A stretch of 64,000 nt of DNA, taken from positions 1,938,501 through 2,002,500 of the forward strand of contig NC_010424.1 of the NCBI RefSeq assembly GCF_000018425.1, in the 5' to 3' direction. The position numbers and the translations under genes are program-made. Shown one piece after another: positions 41,381 to 55,135 of this stretch (its first letter is position 1; the number at the start of each line of letters is the position of its first letter). The DNA is from Candidatus Desulforudis audaxviator MP104C. GTDB lineage: Bacteria > Bacillota > Desulfotomaculia > Desulfotomaculales > Desulforudaceae. The notes beneath the pieces are model-generated. The model searched no databases. It saw nothing but the letters and a program-made list of their open reading frames with translations, and had not been told where the DNA came from.

Positions 41381-42541
41381 TTAACGGCGGACCGGTTTCT
41401 CGCCCAGTTTCACTTCCAGCTCGCGGACGCTGCCGTCCCGGAATATCTTCACCTTTAGGGTTTCGCCCGCCTTATGGGTCCTGATCGCCCGGATCACTTT
41501 TTCCGGGTTGTTCACCGGAGCCCCGTTTAACTCCAGGATCACGTCACCCGGCCGGAAACCGGCTCTGGCCGCCGGGCTGTCGGCCACAATCCCGATTACC
41601 AGCGCCCCGGTAGTGCCCCGAAGTTTCAGGTACCGGGCCAGTTCCGGAGAAACAGTGTCCAACTGCACACCCAGCCAAGCGTGACTGATGCCGCCGGTTC
41701 TGATCAACTCATCCAGGACGGGACGGATGGTGCTGGTCGGGATGGCGAAGCCGATCCCCTGGGCCTGGGCGTTGACAGCCGTGTTGATCGCCACGACCTC
41801 GCCCCGGAGATTCAACAGCGGGCCGCCGCTGTTCCCTGGGTTGATGGAGGCGTCAGTCTGCAGGAGATTGTCGTAGTACCGGTCCTCGATGGTCACCGGG
41901 CGGCCCTTGGCGCTGATCACCCCGACGGTGACCGTATGGTCCAGGCCGTAGGGGTTGCCGATAGCGATCACCCACTCACCAACCCGGACATTGTCCGAAT
42001 CACCAAGTTTCAGGTGGGGCAGCTTGCGCGGGGCGTTCACCCGGAGCACCGCCAGGTCGAGGTCGTAGTCCGAACCCACCACCTTTGCGGCCAGCGGTGT
42101 TTCGAACCCGGTCAGGGTCACCCAGATCTCCTCGGCACCGCGGATTACGTGTTCATTAGTCAGGATGTAACCGTCCTCGGAAAACAGAAACCCGGACCCC
42201 ATACCCCGGCGGCTGGGGCTCGACTGCGGGGGTGAAATGTCGGGAAGGCCGAAAAAGTCACGGAAGAAGGGATCGTCAAAGAACGGGCTCCATTCCCTGC
42301 CGGAGGTTGGTACCACTGTGTCGATTTTCACTACCGCCGGCCCGGCCCGGCCAACGATTTCGACGATCGTACCCGGGTTTACGCCGGGCAATTCGGGAGC
42401 GGCCACCGCCGTGCGGTTGTTGGTGTTGACGAGGGGCTCCTGTGGCCAAAAATCCCTGGTCGCCATATTGCCGGCGGCGAACATTATCCCGGCTACCAGA
42501 GCCAAAAGGGTGGTGAACACTAACTTCCGTCTCCAACTCAT
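41381..42541 (-). CDS. HtrA/DegP-type serine protease with PDZ domain
   Basis: 386 residues from the ATG at 42541 (GGGGGG site). The N-terminal hydrophobic segment (residues 7-25) anchors or exports it. Trypsin-like triad: H131 (TNEHVI), D162 (YDLDLAV), S238 (NPGNSGGPL). One PDZ domain (about 285-375; GIVADSPAARAGFRPGDVIL). It degrades misfolded extracytoplasmic proteins. The frame is open to 42679, but that stretch is charged and without a signal pattern. Convergent with copA. Confidence 0.93.
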   Translation of the reverse strand: MSWRRKLVFTTLLALVAGIMFAAGNMATRDFWPQEPLVNTNNRTAVAAPELPGVNPGTIVEIVGRAGPAVVKIDTVVPTSGREWSPFFDDPFFRDFFGLPDISPPQSSPSRRGMGSGFLFSEDGYILTNEHVIRGAEEIWVTLTGFETPLAAKVVGSDYDLDLAVLRVNAPRKLPHLKLGDSDNVRVGEWVIAIGNPYGLDHTVTVGVISAKGRPVTIEDRYYDNLLQTDASINPGNSGGPLLNLRGEVVAINTAVNAQAQGIGFAIPTSTIRPVLDELIRTGGISHAWLGVQLDTVSPELARYLKLRGTTGALVIGIVADSPAARAGFRPGDVILELNGAPVNNPEKVIRAIRTHKAGETLKVKIFRDGSVRELEVKLGEKPVRR

Positions 42542-42795: not shown

Positions 42796-43683
42796 TTACT
42801 TCTTGACCCCGTACTTCTTCAGTTTGCCATAAGGCGAAACGATATTGTACTGGAAGGCCAAGTCCTTCGGCTTCAGGTCGAAAGCCACGCCCATCAACTG
42901 GGTCAGGAACAGGACCGGCATGTTGTATTTCTTCTTGTTAAGCTTGCCGATCTTTTCCTGGAACACGTCGGTGTTCATGGCACACATCGGACAGGTGGTG
43001 ACGATAACGTCCGCCCCGGCGGCCGCCGCCGAATCCAGCACTTTGCCGGTCAGGTCGTAGATCAGTTCCGGGTTGGTGAACTGCTGCGAACCGCCACAGC
43101 ACCGGGCGGCCAAGGGGAAGTCCACCGCCTCCGCGCCCACGGCCTCCACGATCCGGCCCATAACCTGCGGATACTCCACGTCGTCAAAGTCCGGGCGCCG
43201 GAGAGCACGCACCGTCTGGCAGCCGGAGTAGCAGGCCACTTTCAAGCCCTCCAGCGGCTTAATGGTCCGTTCCTTGATTCTTTCCGCGCCGATCTCGTTG
43301 GCGAGTACGTCCACCACGTGCTTGACTTTCAGCTTGCCGCTGTAGGAAAGGTTCGCGGCCCCCAAAGCCTCGTTGAGCTTCGCGGCGAAATCCGGATTAG
43401 TCCTCATCAACTCGTTCGGCCACGCCAGGTTCAGGTAGCAGGAACTGCAGGCGACAATGATGTCGTGCCCCTTCTTCTCAGCCAGGGCCAGGTTGCGGCA
43501 CGCGAGCGCCATCTGGGCGAAGTCGCCGATGGCATTGGCCACCAGGGTCGCGCCACAGCAGTTCCAGTCCGGAATCTCGCCCGCCAGTTCCAGGCCCAGA
43601 GCGTGCGCTACCGCCTCGAACGAAATGTGGTTGGACTTACCGGTCGCCTCCGATGCGCAACCCGGATAGTAAATGTACGCCAT
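42796..43683 (-). CDS. hdrB: HdrB-like CCG-domain subunit of the Qmo/Hdr complex
   Basis: 295 residues with two CCG domains: PGCASEA, WNCCGAT, CSSCYLN; and YSGCQTV, ARCCGGSQ, CPMCAMN. In heterodisulfide reductases these bind noncubane [4Fe-4S] clusters and reduce disulfides. In Gram-positive sulfate reducers HdrCB replaces QmoC next to qmoAB and is thought to link APS reductase to the electron pool. Its ATG directly follows the hdrC stop. Last gene of the unit. Confidence 0.92.
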   Translation of the reverse strand: MAYIYYPGCASEATGKSNHISFEAVAHALGLELAGEIPDWNCCGATLVANAIGDFAQMALACRNLALAEKKGHDIIVACSSCYLNLAWPNELMRTNPDFAAKLNEALGAANLSYSGKLKVKHVVDVLANEIGAERIKERTIKPLEGLKVACYSGCQTVRALRRPDFDDVEYPQVMGRIVEAVGAEAVDFPLAARCCGGSQQFTNPELIYDLTGKVLDSAAAAGADVIVTTCPMCAMNTDVFQEKIGKLNKKKYNMPVLFLTQLMGVAFDLKPKDLAFQYNIVSPYGKLKKYGVKK

Positions 43684-44271
43684 CTAGTGTCCCTCCTTCG
43701 CCAGTTTGGAGGCCTTCTTGTAGATCTTCTTCAGATCCCCTTTGCCCTTGACGGCCTTACCGGGCAAGGGAGGCAAACGCTTTTTCATCACCATCGGTAT
43801 GGCCACATCGGTCATCTTCATCGCTTCGCGTATAGCCTTGGGCCCGGCCTTCATGTAGAACATCCCGGTCAGGAAGGCCTCCCACAGGCGGCCACGGCTG
43901 ATCATGTTGTCGAAGAAGGTCTTGCTAAAGAGCGCTCCCGGCGTAACCTTCACGCCCTTGGTGTCGGCCAGGTACTTCTTCATCCCGTGCATGAAGTCGA
44001 TGATCGGAATGCCGCGCGGGCACCTCACCGTACACAGGTTGCATGACGTGCACAGCCACGGCGTGTTCGCCTTCAAAACCTTTTCCTTGTCGCCGGCCTG
44101 GATCGCCTTGAAGTACTTCCGCGGCTGCAGATCCATCAAGTGCCGGGCCGGACAGGTTACCACACACAAACCACACTGCATGCACTGGCTGATGTACTCC
44201 CCGTTTTCGATCCTGGAGAGTTCTCTCGCAAAGGTGGGGTCGTACCTGAATGCCCCCTTATCGGCGGTCAT
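43684..44271 (-). CDS. hdrC: HdrC-like iron-sulfur subunit
   Basis: 195 residues. Two [4Fe-4S] motifs: CMQCGLCVVTCP and CTSCNLCTVRCP, separated by a helix (YFKAIQAGDKEKVL); the C-terminal part is basic and helical without membrane segments. It relays electrons between QmoAB and HdrB. Unlike QmoC it has no cytochrome b-like membrane domain, so membrane contact must be made otherwise. hdrC and hdrB abut exactly. Confidence 0.92.
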   Translation of the reverse strand: MTADKGAFRYDPTFARELSRIENGEYISQCMQCGLCVVTCPARHLMDLQPRKYFKAIQAGDKEKVLKANTPWLCTSCNLCTVRCPRGIPIIDFMHGMKKYLADTKGVKVTPGALFSKTFFDNMISRGRLWEAFLTGMFYMKAGPKAIREAMKMTDVAIPMVMKKRLPPLPGKAVKGKGDLKKIYKKASKLAKEGH

Positions 44272-44589: not shown

Positions 44590-46797
44590 CTAGAAGCCCT
44601 TCATCGGGTTCGGACCGAGTTGGTCGATTTTCTCCATGAAGTCCCCGATGAGCTGCGGAATCCGGAAGTAATCCATAATGCTGATCTGGTGCATGCGGCA
44701 GCGTTCGGACTCGAGGCCCAACCGGTCCAAGGTCTCCGAAACTTTGGACAGGCGGATCTCGGCCAGCTCACTGCCCTTGATAAAGTGGCACTGGTAGTCT
44801 TCGCCATGTTTGCACCCCAGAAGCATCACGCCGTCAAAGCCCCCCGACATGGCGTCGGAGATCCAGACCAGGTTCAGCGAGCCAAGACACCGGAGCGGAA
44901 TCACACGTACCCAGGCGGCGAACTTCAGGCGGCTGATGCCCGCCATGTCGAGCGCCGGGATGGCGTCGTTCTCGCAGGCAAAGATAAGGATTCTCGGTTT
45001 TTCCTCGTCTTCCTCTGGAACCTCGATCGCCTTGCCCATTCCACCGATCATGGGTACCGAGTAGTCCTTGAAGGAGATGATCCGCTCGGGGCAAGCACCC
45101 ATACAGGTGCCGCACCGCCGGCAGCGGGTCCGCTCAGGCAGCGGGTTGGCCTTCTCGTCCTCGTTGATCGCCCCGAACGGACACTCCTCAGTACACCGCT
45201 TGCACTGGGTGCAGCGCTGCATGAAGAATTCCGGATAGGACGTATCCCCGGCTCTCGGGTGCACCGCCTCACCACGGATTACGGCCTCGACGCACTGGAT
45301 GGCCTTCAAGGCCGCGCCGGTGCCGTCTTCGATGGCGGTCGGGATCTGCATGGTCGCCCGGACGGTGCCGGCGGCGTAGATCCCGGTCCGGCGGGTCTCG
45401 TACGGGAAGCAGATGAAGTGCGAGTCCGGAAAACCGTACTTCAAGGCCGGCATTTCCGGTCCCTGGCGGTACGCCAGGTTCAGGAGGCCCGACTTGATGA
45501 TCTGGTCCGGCTTGACCGCTTCCTCTTCCTTGGCCGCCGCCGCTTCCTGCTCGGCTTCCACGGCGATCTCCTCGCCGAAGGCGGCGTTGCTCTGCATACC
45601 GTTGGCCAGAACCACAAGGTCGAGGTCCCCAATCCTGACGTCCTCACCCAGGATCAGGTCTTTGCCGGTCACCGCTAGCTTGCCGCCGTCCTCGCTTACT
45701 TCCACGCCTGGGATTTCGGTCTTGATGAACACCGCTCCCGTCTGCTGGACGGCTTTGTAGAAGTACTCATACTTGCCCGTTGCCCGGATGTCCTTGTAGA
45801 AAATGTAGGCCTGGGCTTCCGGGTTGAATTCTTTGAGGTAGACGGCCTGCTTCAGGGTTTCCACACAGCAGGCGGCCGAACAGTACGGCAGGTGGTTCGC
45901 GTCGCGGGATCCGGCACACTGGATGAAGGCCACGCGCTTCACGTTCTTCAATTCGCCGCTGTTGGCCAGAGCCTCCACGTCGGACTGGGTGACCACGTTG
46001 GGCTTACCGAAGCCCAAGTAGTCGAGCTTCTTCGGGTCATAAGGCCGGGATCCGGCCGCCAGCACGACAGCACCGATTCTCTCGTCCACCACGGTGCCGC
46101 CTTGTTTGATCTTGGCATCGAACACGCCCGGCCCCCCGGAGATCTGCTCCATGGTGGCCTCTTTGTACACCTTGATCTTCGGATGGTCCTCCACCGCCTT
46201 GGCCAGCGCGGGAATGGGGTTTTCCTCAAGGTCGGTGTACGGTTCTTTCGTGGGCGGCAGTTTGTACGCCTGGCCGGCCCAACCGCCAAGTTTGGCGCTC
46301 TTCTCCACCAGCACGACTTCGTAACCGGCGTTGGCTGCCTCCCACGCCGCCGTCAGGCCGGCGAGACCGCTGCCCACCACCAGGATGGTCCTGGACGGGT
46401 TTTCCGCCATAAAGGGCTCTGGGAGTTCGGTGGCCTTGGCCCGGGACAGGCCCATCCGCATGTAGTCTTCGGCCATCATGTTGGTGTCCTCGTCACCGGG
46501 TTCTTGCACCCAGGCGACCCGCTCCCGCAAGGGCACCCGCTCCACGATCACCGCGGGACCGAAGTTGAATACATCGTAGCAGACTCGGTCTGAACAGGCC
46601 GCGATGATGAGGGTGTTGAATCCCGCCTCGATGTCTTGCTTGATCAGGGCGACACCCTCGGGGCTGCACAGGAAGGGGTGCTCCTTCACGTCCTGGATCT
46701 TAAACTCCTTGTTCGCCACCTTGGTCAGGGCCGCCAGATCCAGGGCCTCCCCAATACCGCAACCCGAGCAGAAGTATACGGCTTGTTTCTTAGTCAT
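44590..46797 (-). CDS. qmoB: QmoB, HdrA-like flavin/iron-sulfur subunit with MvhD-type end
   Basis: 735 residues. An N-terminal Cys-rich segment (CSGCGIGEALD), an FAD domain at about 127 (ILVVGSGLAGLTAAWEA), two ferredoxin clusters (CTQCKRCTEECP and CRRCGTCMGACP) and a C-terminal MvhD-like region (ACENDAIPALD, then VMLLGCKHGEDYQCHF). This is the standard QmoB architecture. The ATG at 46797 is one base after the qmoA stop. It is part of the complex that passes electrons to AprBA and may bifurcate. Confidence 0.94.
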   Translation of the reverse strand: MTKKQAVYFCSGCGIGEALDLAALTKVANKEFKIQDVKEHPFLCSPEGVALIKQDIEAGFNTLIIAACSDRVCYDVFNFGPAVIVERVPLRERVAWVQEPGDEDTNMMAEDYMRMGLSRAKATELPEPFMAENPSRTILVVGSGLAGLTAAWEAANAGYEVVLVEKSAKLGGWAGQAYKLPPTKEPYTDLEENPIPALAKAVEDHPKIKVYKEATMEQISGGPGVFDAKIKQGGTVVDERIGAVVLAAGSRPYDPKKLDYLGFGKPNVVTQSDVEALANSGELKNVKRVAFIQCAGSRDANHLPYCSAACCVETLKQAVYLKEFNPEAQAYIFYKDIRATGKYEYFYKAVQQTGAVFIKTEIPGVEVSEDGGKLAVTGKDLILGEDVRIGDLDLVVLANGMQSNAAFGEEIAVEAEQEAAAAKEEEAVKPDQIIKSGLLNLAYRQGPEMPALKYGFPDSHFICFPYETRRTGIYAAGTVRATMQIPTAIEDGTGAALKAIQCVEAVIRGEAVHPRAGDTSYPEFFMQRCTQCKRCTEECPFGAINEDEKANPLPERTRCRRCGTCMGACPERIISFKDYSVPMIGGMGKAIEVPEEDEEKPRILIFACENDAIPALDMAGISRLKFAAWVRVIPLRCLGSLNLVWISDAMSGGFDGVMLLGCKHGEDYQCHFIKGSELAEIRLSKVSETLDRLGLESERCRMHQISIMDYFRIPQLIGDFMEKIDQLGPNPMKGF

Positions 46798-46798
46798 A

Positions 46799-48058
46799 CT
46801 ACTTGCCACCCCCCACCGTAGCCTGAATGGCTTTGAGCGCGGCCGCTGTGGCGTCGCGCACGGACGCCGAAACCTCCATCGGCTTCCGGGCGCACCCGGC
46901 GCCGCCGATGCCCGTCTCGGCTATGTCGGAAACCACGAAACCGCCCGCGTCGGCCGCGGCCAGTTCCGAGGGGACCGGAGCTTCCAAAGTGGACGGCGCC
47001 ATGCCGGTCGCCAGCACCACCAGGTTCACTTTCTGGGTGACGGTCTTGCCCGCCTCCTGATCCTCGGTCTCGAGGGTCAGGTCTCCGGTGGCCGGGTCCG
47101 CGGTGATCTCACCGACCTTGCCCTTGATGAAGACCACGTTTTCGTCCTTGGCCACCTTGGTGTAAAAGTCCTCGTACTTGCCCAGCGCCCGGATGTCGAT
47201 GTAGAAAACGTAGATTTTGGCGTCGGGGTTCTTTTCCCGGATGTAGGTGATCTGCTTCAAGGTAGCCAGACAGCAGATCTGCGAGCAGTAGGCCTGGTGA
47301 TTCTCGTCCCGCGAGCCGGCACATTGCACAAAGGCGATGGTCTCCGGCTGCTTCCCGTCGGACGGGCGGACGATCCGGCCCTCGGTCGGGCCGTTGGGTA
47401 CCGCCAACCGCTCCAGCATGACGTTGGTGATGACGTTCTTCAAGCGCCCGAAACCGTAGTAGCTGATCTTGGCGGCATCGTACGGCTTCCAACCGGTGGC
47501 GTACACCACCGCCCCTACCTTCAGGTTCACCGTCTCCGGGGCCATGGTGAGATCGATCACGTTGTACTTGCACGCCTCGACGCACTTGGCACAGCCATCA
47601 GGACAGGCTTGACGGTCGATCAAGTACTTCAAGGGGAAGGCGAACGGGTGGGGCAGGTAGATCGCTTTGGTGGTGTCCAGGCCGTAGTTGAAATCATTCG
47701 GCCGCTCCGCCGGGCAGACCGCCACGCAGTCGCCACACGCGGTGCACTCCGGCTTGATGTAACGCGGGCTCAGCTTGACGGTGACGTCAAAGTCTCCCTT
47801 TCGGCCGGAGATCTTCTCGACCTCGGCACAGGTGAAAAACTTGATCCTGGGATTTTTGCGCAAGCGCCGGAAGTTGATTTCCAACCCGCAGTTCGGCGGG
47901 CATAGTTTGGGGAAGTACTGGTGCAGTTGAGCGACCCGGCCGCCCAGGTAGGGGTTCTTCTCCACGAGATAGACCTCGTAGCCCACCTCCGCCGCTTCCA
48001 GGGCCGTGGTCAGCCCACTTATCCCTCCCCCGACAACCAGGATGCTTTTGTTTGCCAT
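46799..48058 (-). CDS. qmoA: QmoA, HdrA-like flavoprotein subunit
   Basis: 419 residues. The FAD-binding GxGxxG start is ILVVGGGISGLTTALEAAEV; GGRVAQL and CPPNCGLE follow, and Cys-rich motifs CTACGDCVAVCP and CPDGCAKCVEACK bind clusters. Partner of QmoB; both are related to heterodisulfide reductase HdrA. It starts 214 bp after aprA, separated by a strong hairpin, and is coupled to qmoB. Confidence 0.94.
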   Translation of the reverse strand: MANKSILVVGGGISGLTTALEAAEVGYEVYLVEKNPYLGGRVAQLHQYFPKLCPPNCGLEINFRRLRKNPRIKFFTCAEVEKISGRKGDFDVTVKLSPRYIKPECTACGDCVAVCPAERPNDFNYGLDTTKAIYLPHPFAFPLKYLIDRQACPDGCAKCVEACKYNVIDLTMAPETVNLKVGAVVYATGWKPYDAAKISYYGFGRLKNVITNVMLERLAVPNGPTEGRIVRPSDGKQPETIAFVQCAGSRDENHQAYCSQICCLATLKQITYIREKNPDAKIYVFYIDIRALGKYEDFYTKVAKDENVVFIKGKVGEITADPATGDLTLETEDQEAGKTVTQKVNLVVLATGMAPSTLEAPVPSELAAADAGGFVVSDIAETGIGGAGCARKPMEVSASVRDATAAALKAIQATVGGGK

Positions 48059-48272: not shown

Positions 48273-50162
48273 CTACAGTCTGATGATGTCTCTCTTGAAG
48301 ACTTCCCACTCGCCCGTGTTCGGGTCCCACTTGCAGTTCACGAAGACTTCCCAGTTGTCGTCCATGTTCGGGAAGTCGGCGCGGAAGTAGTAGCCCGGCC
48401 AACGGGTCTCTTCGCGGAACAGGATGGTGCGGATGTGGGACTCAGCCACCCAGGTACGGTGGATGTTCTCCCAGCAGCGCATCAGCTCGTTCAGGTCGCG
48501 CGCCGCGAGCTTCTCGGAGTCTTCCTTCAACATCTGCAGGTACTCCATGCCCTTCTCCAGCAGCATCTTGCTGGTGGTGAAGTTAGAGCCCCAGCCGCCG
48601 GCATACTCATCCATCAGCTTCTGGATGCGGTGCTTGTACTGCTTCGGCAGGATGTAGTTCGGGTTGACTTCCGGAGCGGTGGTGAAGTCCTTGAACTCCT
48701 GGAACCGGTCAAGCGGGGCCAGGATCTTGGCCTTGAGGGCCTCGACAACCGCCGGGTCCACGTTCGGCAGGTCGGGGTTCTTGTCAACCAGGTACTTGCA
48801 GGCGGCCTTGCCGGCGATGCGGCCTTCCGCGTGCGAACCGGAGGAGAACTTGTGGCTGGACGCGCCGGAGGCGTCACCGGCGGCGAACAGGCCATCGACC
48901 GTGGTCAGGTTGGGGTAGCCCCAGAAGTATTCCGGCGGCGCTACGTCGTCCGGACCGCTGACCCAGGCGCCGGAGGCCCCGGAGTGCGAACCGATGAAGT
49001 ACGGCTCAGCGGCGGCGATTTCGGACTCTTTCTCCTCGGGGTTGATGTTGCAGGCCGCCCACAGGAGGGCCTGAGAGATGGTCATGTCGAGGAAGTCTTC
49101 CCAAGCTTCATCATGGAGGTGCTTCATCTTCTTCTTGAAGGCCTTCTCGTCGCCCTCGTACTTGGCGGCGAGGCGCTTGATGGCGTCGGCCGTCTGCATG
49201 TAGATCGGGCCCTTGCCGGCCGAGACGTCGATCATACCAAGGTAGTTACGCAGGTTGGCCGGGATCGGCTTGACCTTGCCGTACTTGCCCCACTTTTCGA
49301 GTTCGGCGGCGTTGGTCACCATATAGTTTTCGCCGAAGGCGTTGGTCGCGACGGACTTGAAGAGCAGGAACCACGCGCCGACCGGGCCGTAAGCGTCCTT
49401 GAAGCGGACCGGAATGAACCGGACTTCCTGGCAGGTCATCTCGGCGCCGGCCTTGATGGTGAAGTAGGCGCTGGAGCCGGTGGAGAACGGCGGGTACCAG
49501 GACCGGCCGAGACCCTCACCGGAGGACCGCGGACGGAACACGCCCACGCAGCCGCCCATCGCGCACAGGACGGCCTTCGCGCGGAACACGTAGAACTTCT
49601 CCTCGCGGACACTGAAGCCGACCGCACCGGCGATCCGGTTGTTTTCCACAATCGGTTCCACGATGAACACGCGCTCGTAGATGTTATCCTTGCCGAGGGC
49701 GTTCTTGGCGGCTTCCGCCACGATGATCTTGTAGGACTCACCGTTGATCATAACCTGCCAGCGGCCGCCCCGCTGATACGGACCGATCCGGAAGGGGTCG
49801 TCTTCGCCTTTCGGCCAGATCGGCAGACCCCACTTCTCGAACAGGTGCACGGTGGAGTCGACGTGCCGGGCGATGTTGTAAACGAGGTCGTCGCGGGCGA
49901 TACCCATCAGGTCATTCCGCACGTACTCCACGTAGTCCATCACGGTGTTCTCATTGTCGCGCAGGCCGACATACAGGTTGATGGCCGAGAGGCCCTGAGC
50001 AACGGCACCGCTCCGGTCCATGGCGGCTTTGTCAACCAGGGTCACTTTCAGCCCGTGCTTTTTCGCCCAGTGCGCCGCTTCCACCGCCGCACCGCAGGCC
50101 GCCATGCCGCCACCGACGATCAAGAGATCAGTGGTGACTTCTACAGTTTCAAAATTCGGCAT
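48273..50162 (-). CDS. aprA: Adenylylsulfate (APS) reductase alpha subunit
   Basis: 629 residues, flavoprotein of the fumarate-reductase fold: FAD motif LIVGGGMAACGAAVEAA at residues 14-30. Residues matching the APS/FAD site of Archaeoglobus AprA by eye alignment are all present: N62 (SAINLYV), E142 (INGESYK), W222 (RSWYPP), R253 (PVRFKDAYGP) and H393 (GSHSGASG). It reduces APS to sulfite and AMP in the cytoplasm. Between aprB (52 bp upstream) and the qmo genes. A typical sulfate-reducer AprA. Confidence 0.97.
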   Translation of the reverse strand: MPNFETVEVTTDLLIVGGGMAACGAAVEAAHWAKKHGLKVTLVDKAAMDRSGAVAQGLSAINLYVGLRDNENTVMDYVEYVRNDLMGIARDDLVYNIARHVDSTVHLFEKWGLPIWPKGEDDPFRIGPYQRGGRWQVMINGESYKIIVAEAAKNALGKDNIYERVFIVEPIVENNRIAGAVGFSVREEKFYVFRAKAVLCAMGGCVGVFRPRSSGEGLGRSWYPPFSTGSSAYFTIKAGAEMTCQEVRFIPVRFKDAYGPVGAWFLLFKSVATNAFGENYMVTNAAELEKWGKYGKVKPIPANLRNYLGMIDVSAGKGPIYMQTADAIKRLAAKYEGDEKAFKKKMKHLHDEAWEDFLDMTISQALLWAACNINPEEKESEIAAAEPYFIGSHSGASGAWVSGPDDVAPPEYFWGYPNLTTVDGLFAAGDASGASSHKFSSGSHAEGRIAGKAACKYLVDKNPDLPNVDPAVVEALKAKILAPLDRFQEFKDFTTAPEVNPNYILPKQYKHRIQKLMDEYAGGWGSNFTTSKMLLEKGMEYLQMLKEDSEKLAARDLNELMRCWENIHRTWVAESHIRTILFREETRWPGYYFRADFPNMDDNWEVFVNCKWDPNTGEWEVFKRDIIRL

Positions 50163-50214: not shown

Positions 50215-50652
50215 TTAGGGCTTGGGTACAGCCACGCCCAGCGAAGCCGGCTCGGTGTACAGGTGGACCACATCGTTGATATCGTCCACGCCCGCACCGT
50301 ATCCGCCATCGGGTACCGCGGTGCCCTCGTCGGTGGTCCGGATGGGGAACTTGAAGCGCTTGACTGTGCCGTTCCGGAACTTAACGGTCCACATGATGTC
50401 CTGCGAACCCCTGAGCGGCACGCAAGCCGCGCCCATCGGGACAAAGTCGGCGTAACCCCGCATGTCCATCGCCTGCTGCGGGCAGATCTTGACACAGCAG
50501 AGACACTCCCAGCACTCGTCCGGAGCCCGGTTGTAGGCCTTCATTCTTTCCTTGTCCAGGACCATCAAGTCGTTGGGGCAAATGTACATGCACGCGGTTT
50601 TGTCCTGCCCCTTGCAGCCGTCGCACTTTTCGGTCATTACAAATGTCGGCAT
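50215..50652 (-). CDS. aprB: Adenylylsulfate reductase beta subunit
   Basis: 145 residues. Two [4Fe-4S] sites: CDGCKGQDKTACMYICP and CWECLCCVKICP, followed by the long C-terminal tail (TTDEGTAVPDGGYG and onward) that in known structures wraps round AprA. It hands electrons to the FAD of AprA. First gene of the minus-strand apr-qmo-hdr unit; GGGAGG lies upstream of the ATG. Confidence 0.97.
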   Translation of the reverse strand: MPTFVMTEKCDGCKGQDKTACMYICPNDLMVLDKERMKAYNRAPDECWECLCCVKICPQQAMDMRGYADFVPMGAACVPLRGSQDIMWTVKFRNGTVKRFKFPIRTTDEGTAVPDGGYGAGVDDINDVVHLYTEPASLGVAVPKP

Positions 50653-51346: not shown

Positions 51347-51412
51347 TCTGGAAACCAGTCAACCAAGCCACCGGCAAGAATTACCGTATTCCCGCACAGG
51401 AGGTTATTGAAA

Positions 51413-51832
51413 GTGTCGCAGGAAGTCCTCGACAAGGCCCAGGAGTTGGGCCAGGTACTCACGAGATGCGCCGAATACCTGGACGTGAAGGCTAAGCAGA
51501 AAGTGATGTTCAACGACAACACCGCGTTGGAAATGCTGAAGGTCTATCACGGCATGCAGGAAATGGCCCAAAGAAAACAGTCCCAAAACATAAGCCTGTC
51601 CCCACAGGAGATCCGGGCCATGGAGCAGATGGAGCTGAAGATGGCCGAACACCCGAGCATCAGGGCGTTTCATGAATCCCAGGGCCGATACCAGGAACTC
51701 ATCAACAAGGTACTCGAAATGATCATCAGGGTACAAAAAGAGGACCAGGAACTGGACATCCTCAAGGAGCAGGTTCCGGACTTCGCGTCCATTCCCAAGA
51801 ACGGCCGGGCAGAGGATGACGAGGACGAATAG
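51413..51832 (+). CDS. YlbF/YmcA-family protein
   Basis: 139 residues, all helical (Com_YlbF fold): VLDKAQELGQVLTRCAEYLD, QEMAQRKQSQN and FHESQGRYQELINKVLEMII, with an acidic C-terminus (EDDEDE). In Bacillus YlbF with YmcA and YaaT promotes Spo0A activation, competence, biofilm and RNase Y-dependent mRNA maturation. The GTG at 51413 follows AGGAGG by nine bases; the TTG at 51407 is less well placed. Convergent with the second apr-like pair. Confidence 0.85.
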   Translation: MSQEVLDKAQELGQVLTRCAEYLDVKAKQKVMFNDNTALEMLKVYHGMQEMAQRKQSQNISLSPQEIRAMEQMELKMAEHPSIRAFHESQGRYQELINKVLEMIIRVQKEDQELDILKEQVPDFASIPKNGRAEDDEDE

Positions 51833-51849: not shown

Positions 51850-51879
51850 GGCGCCCCGCCGAAACGGCGGGGCGCCTTT
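51850..51879. terminator. Bidirectional terminator between ylbF and the apr-like pair
   Basis: GGCGCCCCGCCG and CGGCGGGGCGCC form a 12-bp GC stem with a 3-base loop and TTT on the plus side. It separates two converging genes. Confidence 0.8.
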
Positions 51880-51893
51880 AGTATCTCTTTCTT

Positions 51894-52238
51894 CTACATT
51901 TCCTCTTCCTCTTCGTCTCCGGCCAGCGTCCGCATAATGAAGCGTTCCACATGACCGTGGCAGTCGATCAGGGTCCAGGTCACACTGTGCGGGCCGACGA
52001 CCGGGACGAGTTTCCCGGGGACAAAGGCCAGCTGATACTGAATCCTGGTCTGGATGGCCTGCCGCGGACAGGACTTGGTACAGGTCATGCAGTCCCAGCA
52101 ATCACCCACATCACGGCAAACCGCCTTGCCGGTGTGTTCTTGAATCACCATCAGGTTGCCCGGGCAGACCAACTCGCATAGCGGTTCCTGCTCGCCCTGA
52201 CACCCGTCGCATTTGTCGGGAATAACGTACGGCGGCAC
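51894..52238 (-). CDS. AprB-like ferredoxin of a divergent second pair
   Basis: 114 residues. The two-cluster core is intact and AprB-like: CDGCQGEQEPLCELVCPG and CWDCMTCTKSCP. It is about 30 residues shorter than AprB at 50215; the long C-terminal tail that embraces AprA is missing and replaced by an acidic end (GDEEEEEM). It most probably carries electrons to the flavoprotein encoded just upstream (66-bp gap). Gene order is flavoprotein first, the reverse of the main aprBA locus. True partner and substrate unknown. Confidence 0.8.
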   Translation of the reverse strand: MPPYVIPDKCDGCQGEQEPLCELVCPGNLMVIQEHTGKAVCRDVGDCWDCMTCTKSCPRQAIQTRIQYQLAFVPGKLVPVVGPHSVTWTLIDCHGHVERFIMRTLAGDEEEEEM

Positions 52239-52304
52239 TGGTTTTTACCCCCTCTCGGTATTCAAAGCTGCCGGCTGGGAGACCGCTGCAAAACGGCCAC
52301 CCAA

Positions 52305-54080
52305 TCATATGGTCTGGGCCTTGCGGTCGCCAGGAATGATCTGTTCGTAGGGCTCCTTGTCAAAGGTCAGTTCGTCGGTCTCCGCATTCCACACCGAGGT
52401 GATGAAGCAGTCGAAATTCGCGTCGTCCACTTCCGGGTAGTCGGTACGGTTGACGTAGCCCGGGTACCGGGTTTCCTTCCGGTAGTCGATATGGTCAATG
52501 ACCAGTTGGCAAACGTCCAGACGGTTGATTACGTCCCAGGCGAGCTGCAGTTGGTGCAGGTCTTTCGCCACCAGGTACTGCAACTGTTCCCGCCGCATCC
52601 GGTTGATGAGCTTGCGGGCGATGCCCAGGTTGGTTTCGTTCACGTAGAACCACCGGGAACGGCCGCCGCAGTATTCCTCCATGATGTGCTGCATCCGCCA
52701 CTCCATCTGGTTCGGGAACACGCCTTCCACCGGGTCCCCGCTGGTGAAGAAACTGCACTTCTCGTACCTTTCCAGGGGTGCGAAGATCTTTTTTTCCAGA
52801 TCCGCGAGCACCGCGGGGTCAAGTTCCAGTAGTTCGGGCCGCTTCTCCTTGATGTAGCCAACCATGCTGCGCCCGGCCAGGCGGCCGCAGGTCCAACTTC
52901 CGGAGATGAAGCGCGACGGCGCGGCGCCCAGCGCGTCTCCAGAAACAAACAGGCGTTCCACCGTGGTCATCCGGGAGGTGCCGATCGTCCAGGCCCCGGC
53001 GGTGGCCGCGTTCGCCCCGACAATGGACGGGTTGTCGGCGTCGATCTCCACCGGCTCCCGGCCGGGGTTGATGTCGTTGCAGCCCCAGTACAGCACCAGG
53101 ATGGGAGACATGTCCAGATACTGGGATTTCAAACCCTCCACACGCTGCGGGTCACCCCTGGTGGTGTCCATGTAGCAGGGGCCGCGGTTTTCCTGCATCT
53201 CCCGGCAGTATGCCAGCACCCGGATCGGGGTAGGCGCCGTGTGCCCGCCGAGCTTGACGTATTCCTCACGCTCGCGCATGAAGGCCTCGCCCTTAGCGTT
53301 GATCATAGGGGCCCACATGCCGATGGACATGGTTCCGGTCGCGGCGTAGGTGTCCTTGGTCCGGACCGGTACGAAACGGCTGTCGAACCCGACCATCTTG
53401 GCCCCGGCCCGTTTGCACATGGCGTAGGACCCGCCGGTGTTAAACGGGTAGTACCAGATCCGGTGGTGGGCGTCCCCCTGGCCCCGGGGACGCCAGATTC
53501 CGGCAGCCCCGCCGGCGCAAACCATGACCACTTTGCCGCGGGCCACGTAGTACTTGCCGTCCCGGACGCCGAAACCGACGCACCCGGCCACCTGGCCGTC
53601 CACCGTAATCAAGTCCGTCACGTAAACCCGGTTGTAAACTTTGGCCCGCGCCTTGATGGCCATGTTGGCGGTGATTGGTTTCAAGAGCGAACCGTTAATT
53701 TCGATGTTCCACTTGCCGCGGTTCAGGTAACTGCCATCAGCCTTTTTCTTGATCGGCAGCCCCTCTTTTTCCATCATGGCCACCGTTTCGTTGACCAGTT
53801 CGGCAACGCTCAACAGGATGTCTTCGCGCACCGGCGCGCCGCACATGTCATAGCGGATGTAGGCCACCAGGTCTTCCGGCTTACCTTGGTTGACGTACAT
53901 GTTCAACGCGTTCATCCCGGCCGAGAGGGCGCCGCTGTTGCGGATGAAGGCCTTTTCCAGAATTACGATCTTCAGGTTGTCACCACCGGCCTGACGCGCT
54001 TCCCAGGCGGCCAAGCAACCAGCCGTGCCGCCGCCGATGATCAGAACGTCGGCATCGATGTATTCTCTCTCTCGTGCCAC
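52305..54080 (-). CDS. AprA-like flavoprotein, divergent paralogue of unknown substrate
   Basis: 591 residues, clearly of the AprA/fumarate-reductase fold (FAD loop DVLIIGGGTAGCLAAWEA at 11-28; SRFVPVRTKDTY; C-terminal AKDLHQLQLAWDVINRL, then KETRYPGYVNRTDYPEVDD). By eye alignment with AprA it keeps N60, W209 and R240, but the active-site Glu (INGE) is Ser131 and the active-site His (GSHSG) is Asn357 (GANAA); the HKFSSGSHAEG stretch is also changed. It should bind FAD and a ferredoxin partner yet may not reduce APS. Alternatives are a different adenylyl- or dicarboxylate-type substrate, or an electron-transfer role. Confidence 0.82.
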   Translation of the reverse strand: MAREREYIDADVLIIGGGTAGCLAAWEARQAGGDNLKIVILEKAFIRNSGALSAGMNALNMYVNQGKPEDLVAYIRYDMCGAPVREDILLSVAELVNETVAMMEKEGLPIKKKADGSYLNRGKWNIEINGSLLKPITANMAIKARAKVYNRVYVTDLITVDGQVAGCVGFGVRDGKYYVARGKVVMVCAGGAAGIWRPRGQGDAHHRIWYYPFNTGGSYAMCKRAGAKMVGFDSRFVPVRTKDTYAATGTMSIGMWAPMINAKGEAFMREREEYVKLGGHTAPTPIRVLAYCREMQENRGPCYMDTTRGDPQRVEGLKSQYLDMSPILVLYWGCNDINPGREPVEIDADNPSIVGANAATAGAWTIGTSRMTTVERLFVSGDALGAAPSRFISGSWTCGRLAGRSMVGYIKEKRPELLELDPAVLADLEKKIFAPLERYEKCSFFTSGDPVEGVFPNQMEWRMQHIMEEYCGGRSRWFYVNETNLGIARKLINRMRREQLQYLVAKDLHQLQLAWDVINRLDVCQLVIDHIDYRKETRYPGYVNRTDYPEVDDANFDCFITSVWNAETDELTFDKEPYEQIIPGDRKAQTI

Positions 54081-54376: not shown

Positions 54377-55135
54377 TTACGGCCGGCCGGGCGGGCTGGA
54401 GGCCCGGCGCCGGGCGGCGTACAGGAAGGCGCCGCTCGCGGCGATCACCGCCAGGCTCACCAACTGCCCCACTGTCAGTTCCGTGATGTTGCTGGCCGGT
54501 GAGACCCGCCAGAAATCGATCACAAAGCGGTAGGCGGCGTACAGGATCAGGAAAAAACCCATCACGTACCCGTCAAACGGCTTTTTCAAGCTCAGCCGCC
54601 AGAGCACCAGGAAGATGACCACGCCGAAACCGAAAGAATACAACTGGGTCGGGTGCCGGGCCACTTCGTCAAACGGGAAGACGATTCCGAACGCGTGGTT
54701 CGTGGGCAGCCCGTAACAGCACCCGTTCAAGAAGCAGCCGATCCGCCCGAACGGGTAGCCGGCCGCCACCCCCAGGACCAGAAGGTCTCCCACCCGGGCC
54801 AGCCTCAGCCGCCGGCGCCGGGTGAACCAAATCGCCACCAGCAGGCAAAGCCCCAGGGAGCCGAAGAACGAGAGCCCGCCCCCGTCCCAGAACCGCAGCA
54901 TCTCCAACGGTGCCGTCCGGAAATTCTCCCAATGCAGGAACACGTAGGCAGCCCGGGCCCCGACCACCCCGGCCGCAATCATGTAGAGCGCCAGGTCAAG
55001 CAGGGTGTCGGTGTCGATCCCCTCGCGCCGGCCCACCCGCAGGACAACGAACAGTCCCACCAGGACCCCGACCGCCACCATCACCCCGTAGCTGGTGATG
55101 GTGAACGGCCCCAAATACGCTATAACCGGATGCAA
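54377..55135 (-). CDS. lgt: Prolipoprotein diacylglyceryl transferase
   Basis: 252 residues, about seven membrane helices. The family signature is GRIGCFLNGCCYGLPTN (Arg and surrounding residues) with HWEN, GGLSFFG and RHPTQLY. It transfers diacylglycerol from phosphatidylglycerol to the lipobox Cys of prelipoproteins at the outer face of the membrane. It follows mogA after 32 bp and may be read through from the Mo-cofactor operon. Confidence 0.95.
   Translation of the reverse strand: MHPVIAYLGPFTITSYGVMVAVGVLVGLFVVLRVGRREGIDTDTLLDLALYMIAAGVVGARAAYVFLHWENFRTAPLEMLRFWDGGGLSFFGSLGLCLLVAIWFTRRRRLRLARVGDLLVLGVAAGYPFGRIGCFLNGCCYGLPTNHAFGIVFPFDEVARHPTQLYSFGFGVVIFLVLWRLSLKKPFDGYVMGFFLILYAAYRFVIDFWRVSPASNITELTVGQLVSLAVIAASGAFLYAARRRASSPPGRP

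Follow-up and report, generated by a model that had tools for sequence, protein, structure and literature searches.

The presence of a second pair of aprA- and aprB-like genes close to the canonical aprBA genes of Candidatus Desulforudis audaxviator MP104C raises the question of whether its products constitute another APS reductase or have turned to a different reaction. The pair (aprA2 and aprB2) is part of the window analysed here, a stretch of 64,000 nucleotides from the complete, single-contig genome (2,349,476 bases). An initial annotation of this DNA favoured an oxidoreductase descended from APS reductase with another substrate or direction. Its description of the locus proved accurate: both open reading frames are located on the minus strand, with aprA2 (52305-54080, GTG start) encoding an FAD subunit of 591 amino acids and aprB2 (51894-52238) a two-[4Fe-4S] ferredoxin subunit of 114 amino acids; the reported distance of 1.2 kb from canonical aprBA corresponds to 1,241 bp between aprB2 and canonical aprB; and the gene order, A2-B2, is indeed reversed relative to the canonical B-A arrangement. 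The number of AprA-like copies had been given as two, but the genome in fact encodes three such proteins.

The two genes are separated by 66 bp on the minus strand (52239-52304, as calculated from the gene coordinates) and are probably co-transcribed. Downstream of aprB2, a perfect hairpin with a 12-bp GC stem and a 3-nt loop (51850-51876, no strand assigned) lies in front of the convergently oriented ylbF gene (51407-51832, plus strand), which encodes a YlbF/YmcA-family protein and is part of the locale, being found also in genomes devoid of aprA2B2. This hairpin is likely a shared terminator dividing aprA2B2 from canonical aprBA. Given the position of ylbF and the hairpin between the two sets of genes, aprA2B2 appears to form its own transcription unit in Desulforudis. 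The canonical genes, all on the minus strand, extend from position 50652 down to 42796 in the order aprB-aprA-qmoA-qmoB-hdrC-hdrB. They comprise aprB (50215-50652), whose product scores over the TIGR02060 cut-off and contains the PF12139 tail, aprA (48273-50162; TIGR02061, 909.8 bits, over the cut-off), the genes for a QmoA-type (46799-48058) and a QmoB-type (44590-46809) HdrA-like protein, and hdrC (43684-44271) and hdrB (42796-43683), which complete a QmoAB-HdrCB module. This apr-QmoAB-HdrCB arrangement has been described previously (PMC4148979), and synteny suggests that the QmoA-type protein acts as an electron partner of canonical AprBA. Upstream of aprA2 lies lgt (54377-55135, minus strand), the first gene of an lgt-mogA-MOSC-moaC-moeA-moeA block. 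A link to the molybdenum cofactor through moeA, moaC, mogA and lgt was considered and rejected, because the same block adjoins the canonical apr genes in two genomes lacking aprA2B2 (G004 and G008) and thus reflects only the locale. In G004, which belongs to the same family as Desulforudis, ylbF and lgt are direct neighbours and form an empty site (L138:11568-12799). No Rfam element was detected between positions 42000 and 60000 of the window.

Sequence and fold both place the two proteins in the APS reductase family, in line with the relationship originally proposed for the flavoprotein and the ferredoxin. AprA2 carries an FAD_binding_2 domain (PF00890, 61.4 bits) and matches NF005331 (PRK06854, adenylyl-sulfate reductase subunit alpha) with an E-value of 9e-156, as well as the PDB entries 8a8o (E 2e-126) and 1jnr (E 3e-120). 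Its NF005331 score of 519.6 bits remains below the curated cut-off of 557 bits; a basal ortholog from a MAG named Ammonifex sp. (G010) reaches 578.7 bits. Both subunits also stay below the cut-offs of the canonical models, with AprA2 scoring 463.4 of the required 641.75 bits for TIGR02061 and AprB2 75.4 of 135.65 bits for TIGR02060. An AlphaFold2 model of AprA2, generated on a 60-sequence alignment (pLDDT 89.9, pTM 0.92), has its nearest solved fold in MtPAPSR (8a8o), a PAPS reductase from Methanothermococcus thermolithotrophicus, with Z 53.8 and rmsd 1.8 over 554, followed by the APS reductases of Archaeoglobus (1jnr/2fja; Z 49.1, rmsd 1.9 over 582) and D. gigas (3gyx; Z 44.6). The superfamily fold is shared with the flavoproteins of fumarate reductase and succinate dehydrogenase (Z ~42 for fumarate reductases; FrdA 1kf6, 42.2), but their identity to AprA2 is only 18%, and AprA2 and its orthologs possess the AprA-type sulfate-binding set. 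AprB2, in turn, retains the full set of eight cluster cysteines as well as Trp48, the residue for electron transfer, so that the pair resembles canonical AprBA (A. fulgidus 1JNR/2FJA) in its fold, its layout of one FAD and two [4Fe-4S] clusters and its Trp48 relay. It differs from the canonical enzyme in that AprA2 is just 32-41% identical to canonical AprA and in the loop that is conserved, charged and exposed in the AprB proteins of sulfate reducers (KGxD/EK/R; PMC2211403), which reads QGExE in AprB2. The PF12139 C-terminal tail with which canonical AprB clasps AprA is missing from AprB2, as first reported, but its absence is not a distinctive trait, since the beta chain of MtPAPSR (104 aa) and that of the third Desulforudis pair (107 aa) are tail-less as well.

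To what extent the pair represents a lineage of its own can be judged from its distribution and phylogeny. A protein search of 113 genomes from the order of the host recovered aprA2 orthologs (65-95% identical) in 22 of them, and 398 further genomes sampled from the whole phylum added no other such ortholog; the next matches showed only 40-48% identity. Orthologs are present in seven of eight genomes of the Desulforudis family (f1, with MAGs named Desulforudis), six of eight from the Ammonifex thiophilus family (f17) and seven of eight from the Desulfocucumis palustris family (f5), with two further families (f4 and f6) also represented. The pair is thus kept across several families, and all 22 genomes additionally encode canonical AprA (in one case only in part, cut off where the contig ends), compared with 49 of the 91 others (Fisher p 1.1e-5, without phylogenetic correction). 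No genome among the 113 contained aprA2B2 without canonical AprA, and by gene content the hosts are sulfate reducers. A maximum-likelihood tree (IQ-TREE, LG+C20 PMSF, SH-aLRT supports) resolved four groups, namely canonical AprA (support 100), the AprA2 orthologs (G3; 100), MtPAPSR-like/assimilatory proteins (94) and a group including the third Desulforudis protein (G2; 100). G3 falls outside the canonical clade as its sister group (95-97), on a long branch, which upholds the descent from the APS reductase family suggested at the outset. However, grouping G3 with the MtPAPSR-like proteins in a single clade was not rejected (AU p 0.166). G3 is a separate lineage, while its deep placement as sister to canonical AprA is tentative.

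The retention of this lineage bears on the idea that aprA2B2 is a redundant or decaying copy without present function, or encodes an inactive enzyme that serves in regulation by binding APS or AMP. Such a fate might be suspected from the canonical enzyme next door and from the replacement of the catalytic His by Asn in Desulforudis and one sister species. Yet the aprA2 frames are intact and an aprB2 ortholog occupies the same position in 22 of 22 loci, and the dN/dS values of aprA2 (0.067-0.10; NG86, four relatives) are lower than those of canonical aprA for the same pairs (0.13-0.22). By this measure, aprA2 is functional, including the Asn-bearing copies, and with values of 0.07-0.10, intact frames and a constant partner gene, decay appears extremely improbable.

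The proposal of a different substrate originally relied on two residues of AprA2, Ser131 and Asn357, which were taken to replace the APS-site Glu and His (E142 and H393 in the canonical copy). We re-examined these positions using an alignment with Archaeoglobus AprA and a 92-sequence MAFFT alignment that included 27 canonical AprAs. All residue numbers given, including those of the conserved N60, W209 and R240, were correct, and the equivalents of the latter three are invariant in all 22 orthologs. However, E142 and S131 align with Glu151 of Archaeoglobus AprA rather than with the APS-site residue Glu141. The Glu141 column contains G132 in the canonical copy and R121 in AprA2, and it varies among the canonical AprAs (E in 14, G in seven and S in six), so that it is not diagnostic. 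Asn357, on the other hand, does align with the catalytic His398, but the exchange is not a family trait: Asn occurs in only two of the 22 orthologs, those of Desulforudis and a sister species (L025; codon AAC), whereas the other 20 have His, among them a congener (L026; CAC) whose protein is 93% identical to AprA2. The loss of His hence represents a recent single substitution, and the argument built on the two residues does not hold. N357 is one of just two private changes of Desulforudis and its sister sequence at otherwise nearly fixed sites, and the gene that carries it is strongly constrained by purifying selection.

In Archaeoglobus AprA, the sulfate moiety is contacted by Asn74, His398, Arg265 and Trp234, with Glu141 and Asp361 acting via water, the phosphate and ribose by Tyr95, Val273, Gly274 and His446, and the adenine is clamped by Arg317 and Leu278 (PMC2211403). 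N74, W234, R265 and R317 are invariant in all G3 orthologs and across all four groups. By contrast, G3 differs from canonical AprA in 22 of 22 sequences by Q145N, L278I, H446S, K447R and D361Q (N125, I253, S389, R390 and Q320 in AprA2); the canonical residues Q145, L278 and H446 are invariant in the 27 canonical AprAs. The MtPAPSR-like and G2 proteins carry, respectively, S or N and D at position 145, Q or L and V at 278, K or Y and N at 446, A or S and D at 361, and K in both cases at 447. Altogether, 29 positions are diagnostic for G3, including the replacement of Archaeoglobus Glu455 by Cys398. Three cysteines of AprA2 (Cys398, Cys471 and Cys524) are fixed or nearly so in G3 and rare elsewhere. 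Judged by these residues, G3 keeps the sulfate-side chemistry of the family and changes the nucleotide end of the pocket, which may alter affinity or specificity. The five fixed nucleotide-side changes and the large set of diagnostic positions, together with the canonical APS reductase already owned by the hosts, could indicate an enzyme that reduces, at its FAD, a sulfo- or adenylyl-compound that is neither APS nor PAPS. We consider this scenario unlikely, given the invariance of the sulfate-side residues and of the adenine-clamp residue Arg317 and the linkage of the genes to sat in two lineages (see below), and because the truly re-shaped pocket in Desulforudis (Y95W, F261W, G274D) belongs to the third pair.

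This third pair (L002/L092; genome positions 818794-825002, L092:5795-12003, outside the window) is preceded by a gene for a transporter of the sodium:sulfate symporter family (Na_sulph_symp) and followed by genes encoding a 706-aa HdrA-FlpD protein and a small Fe-S protein with two clusters. It shares with aprA2B2 a tail-less AprB (55% identical to AprB2) and, with the G3 operons of the Desulfocucumis family, the subsequent HdrA-FlpD gene. However, its flavoprotein is only 39-50% identical to G3, its pocket is profoundly altered (W95, W261, D274, D145 and N446), and, unlike in G3, its flank carries the transporter gene, with no sat gene seen nearby in the Desulforudis genome. The G2 pair scores over the NF005331 cut-off, and G2 is found in genomes across the phylum, some of them without canonical AprA. 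If any Desulforudis pair has abandoned nucleotides, it would be the G2 pair, a better candidate than AprA2B2 for an enzyme with another substrate.

For AprA2B2, the gene neighbourhoods in relatives point to APS, since the pair lies beside sat in two lineages. In the basal Ammonifex sp. MAG, the order is aprA2-aprB2-sat; this sat gene is the sole ATP sulfurylase match in the genome, and canonical aprBA-qmoAB are located on another contig. In seven Desulfocucumis-family genomes, the genes are arranged as aprA2-aprB2-hdrA-sat-aprB-aprA-qmoA-qmoB (with qmo beyond the contig end in one of them), and the hdrA product (~796 aa) combines HdrA with FlpD. Family f6 shows the order aprBA-qmoAB-hdrCB-aprA2B2, whereas the Desulforudis family and most of the Ammonifex family display lgt-aprA2-aprB2, and the pair has no sat or hdrA gene next to it in Desulforudaceae or in the majority of Ammonificaceae. 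Desulforudis itself contains two distinct genes for ATP sulfurylase, separated by 2.6 kb (genome 1132681-1137628; L140:5682-6854 and L140:9409-10629), which are 50% and 38% identical to two sat-type queries; three other genomes (G001, G002 and G007) also have two ATP sulfurylase matches each.

A PAPS reductase of the MtPAPSR type would fit the closest solved relative by both sequence and fold, with which AprA2B2 shares a short, tail-less beta subunit and, at Archaeoglobus positions 141, 143 and 273, the residues R, K and T. However, among the PAPS-pocket residues of MtPAPSR (Lys120, Arg121 and Ser122; PMC10322725), only Lys120 has its match in AprA2 (Lys123), with Trp124 and Asn125 replacing the other two, and AprA2 also has S instead of K at position 446. 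Moreover, G3 is separate from the PAPSR-type clade, although the AU test leaves a sister relationship unrejected, and APS kinase (TIGR00455) is absent from 14 of the 22 aprA2 genomes, including the complete Desulforudis genome, which makes PAPS an unlikely substrate there. In contrast, the MtPAPSR-like gene of another genome (G013) sits between apsK and sat. Overall, we regard a role in PAPS reduction as very unlikely.

The sat linkage would fit either direction of the reaction, and since the APS reductase reaction can also run backwards, a role proposed for Sat-AprAB in disproportionators (PMC10504309), AprA2B2 could chiefly convert sulfite and AMP to APS and further, via Sat, to sulfate and ATP, as in sulfite detoxification or disproportionation. 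This possibility seems quite unlikely, because the hosts are sulfate reducers that invariably possess canonical AprA and because no reverse activity was seen with MtPAPSR, whose fold is the closest (PMC10322725), although direction is not readable from sequence. The literature searched revealed no link to disproportionation through Ammonifex.

The most likely role of AprA2B2 is that of a second APS reductase rather than of an enzyme for another substrate, an assignment that draws on its fold, the conserved catalytic residues, the strict pairing with AprB2, purifying selection, the co-occurrence with canonical AprA, the sat linkage in two lineages and the lack of APS kinase in 14 of the 22 genomes. 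We lean towards the view that it is an anciently diverged isoenzyme in a subset of Desulfotomaculum-type sulfate reducers that receives electrons from HdrA- or Qmo-type proteins. Several observations count against an APS reductase: Asn357 of Desulforudis sits at the proposed proton donor, the nucleotide-end residues differ in all 22 orthologs, such that another adenylyl- or nucleotide-like substrate is possible, sat and hdrA are not neighbours of the pair in Desulforudaceae and most of the Ammonifex family, and the hosts already have canonical AprBA. Following the N5-sulfite adduct mechanism described for related enzymes (PMC2211403; PMC10322725), electrons would enter at cluster II of AprB2 and pass through cluster I and Trp48 to the FAD. 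The reduced FAD would then attack the sulfur atom of Sat-derived APS held by Asn60, Trp209, Arg240, Arg287 and, in most orthologs, the His398 equivalent; AMP would leave, and the N5-sulfite adduct would subsequently release sulfite. Asn125, Ile253, Gln320, Ser389 and Arg390 may tune affinity or off-rate rather than substrate class, and the recent His-to-Asn change in Desulforudis probably weakens protonation of the adduct without abolishing the enzyme. The change of the AprB loop from KGxDK to QGExE, along with the HdrA-FlpD gene in the operon, suggests another electron donor in the seven Desulfocucumis-family genomes, probably a soluble Hdr-type complex; where hdrA is not adjacent, Qmo or Hdr proteins encoded elsewhere could serve as donors. 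It is tempting to speculate that AprA2B2 and the operonic HdrA-FlpD constitute a soluble APS reductase that draws on flavin-based electron bifurcation or confurcation, receiving electrons from H2, formate or ferredoxin by way of Hdr-type proteins and not through the quinone-linked Qmo route, but we assign this idea a low probability.

Collectively, aprA2B2 represents a genuine and conserved lineage of the APS reductase family that is apparently undescribed. In agreement with the initial suggestion that the pair might be undescribed, no account of the G3 clade as a second or paralogous APS reductase was found in the main texts of the open-access papers searched. Sulfate respiration has its gateway step at APS reductase, and aprA serves worldwide as a marker gene. 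A conserved additional AprAB lineage that always accompanies the canonical enzyme in relatives of Desulfotomaculum from the deep subsurface and in thermophilic ones can mislead annotation. AprA2B2 provides a testable case for the divergence of an electron partner and a nucleotide site. If it uses an Hdr-type donor, this would bear on energy conservation at the APS step in Gram-positive sulfate reducers without QmoC, and if the bifurcation or confurcation reading were true, some Gram-positive sulfate reducers would run two APS reductases in parallel, each with its own electron input.
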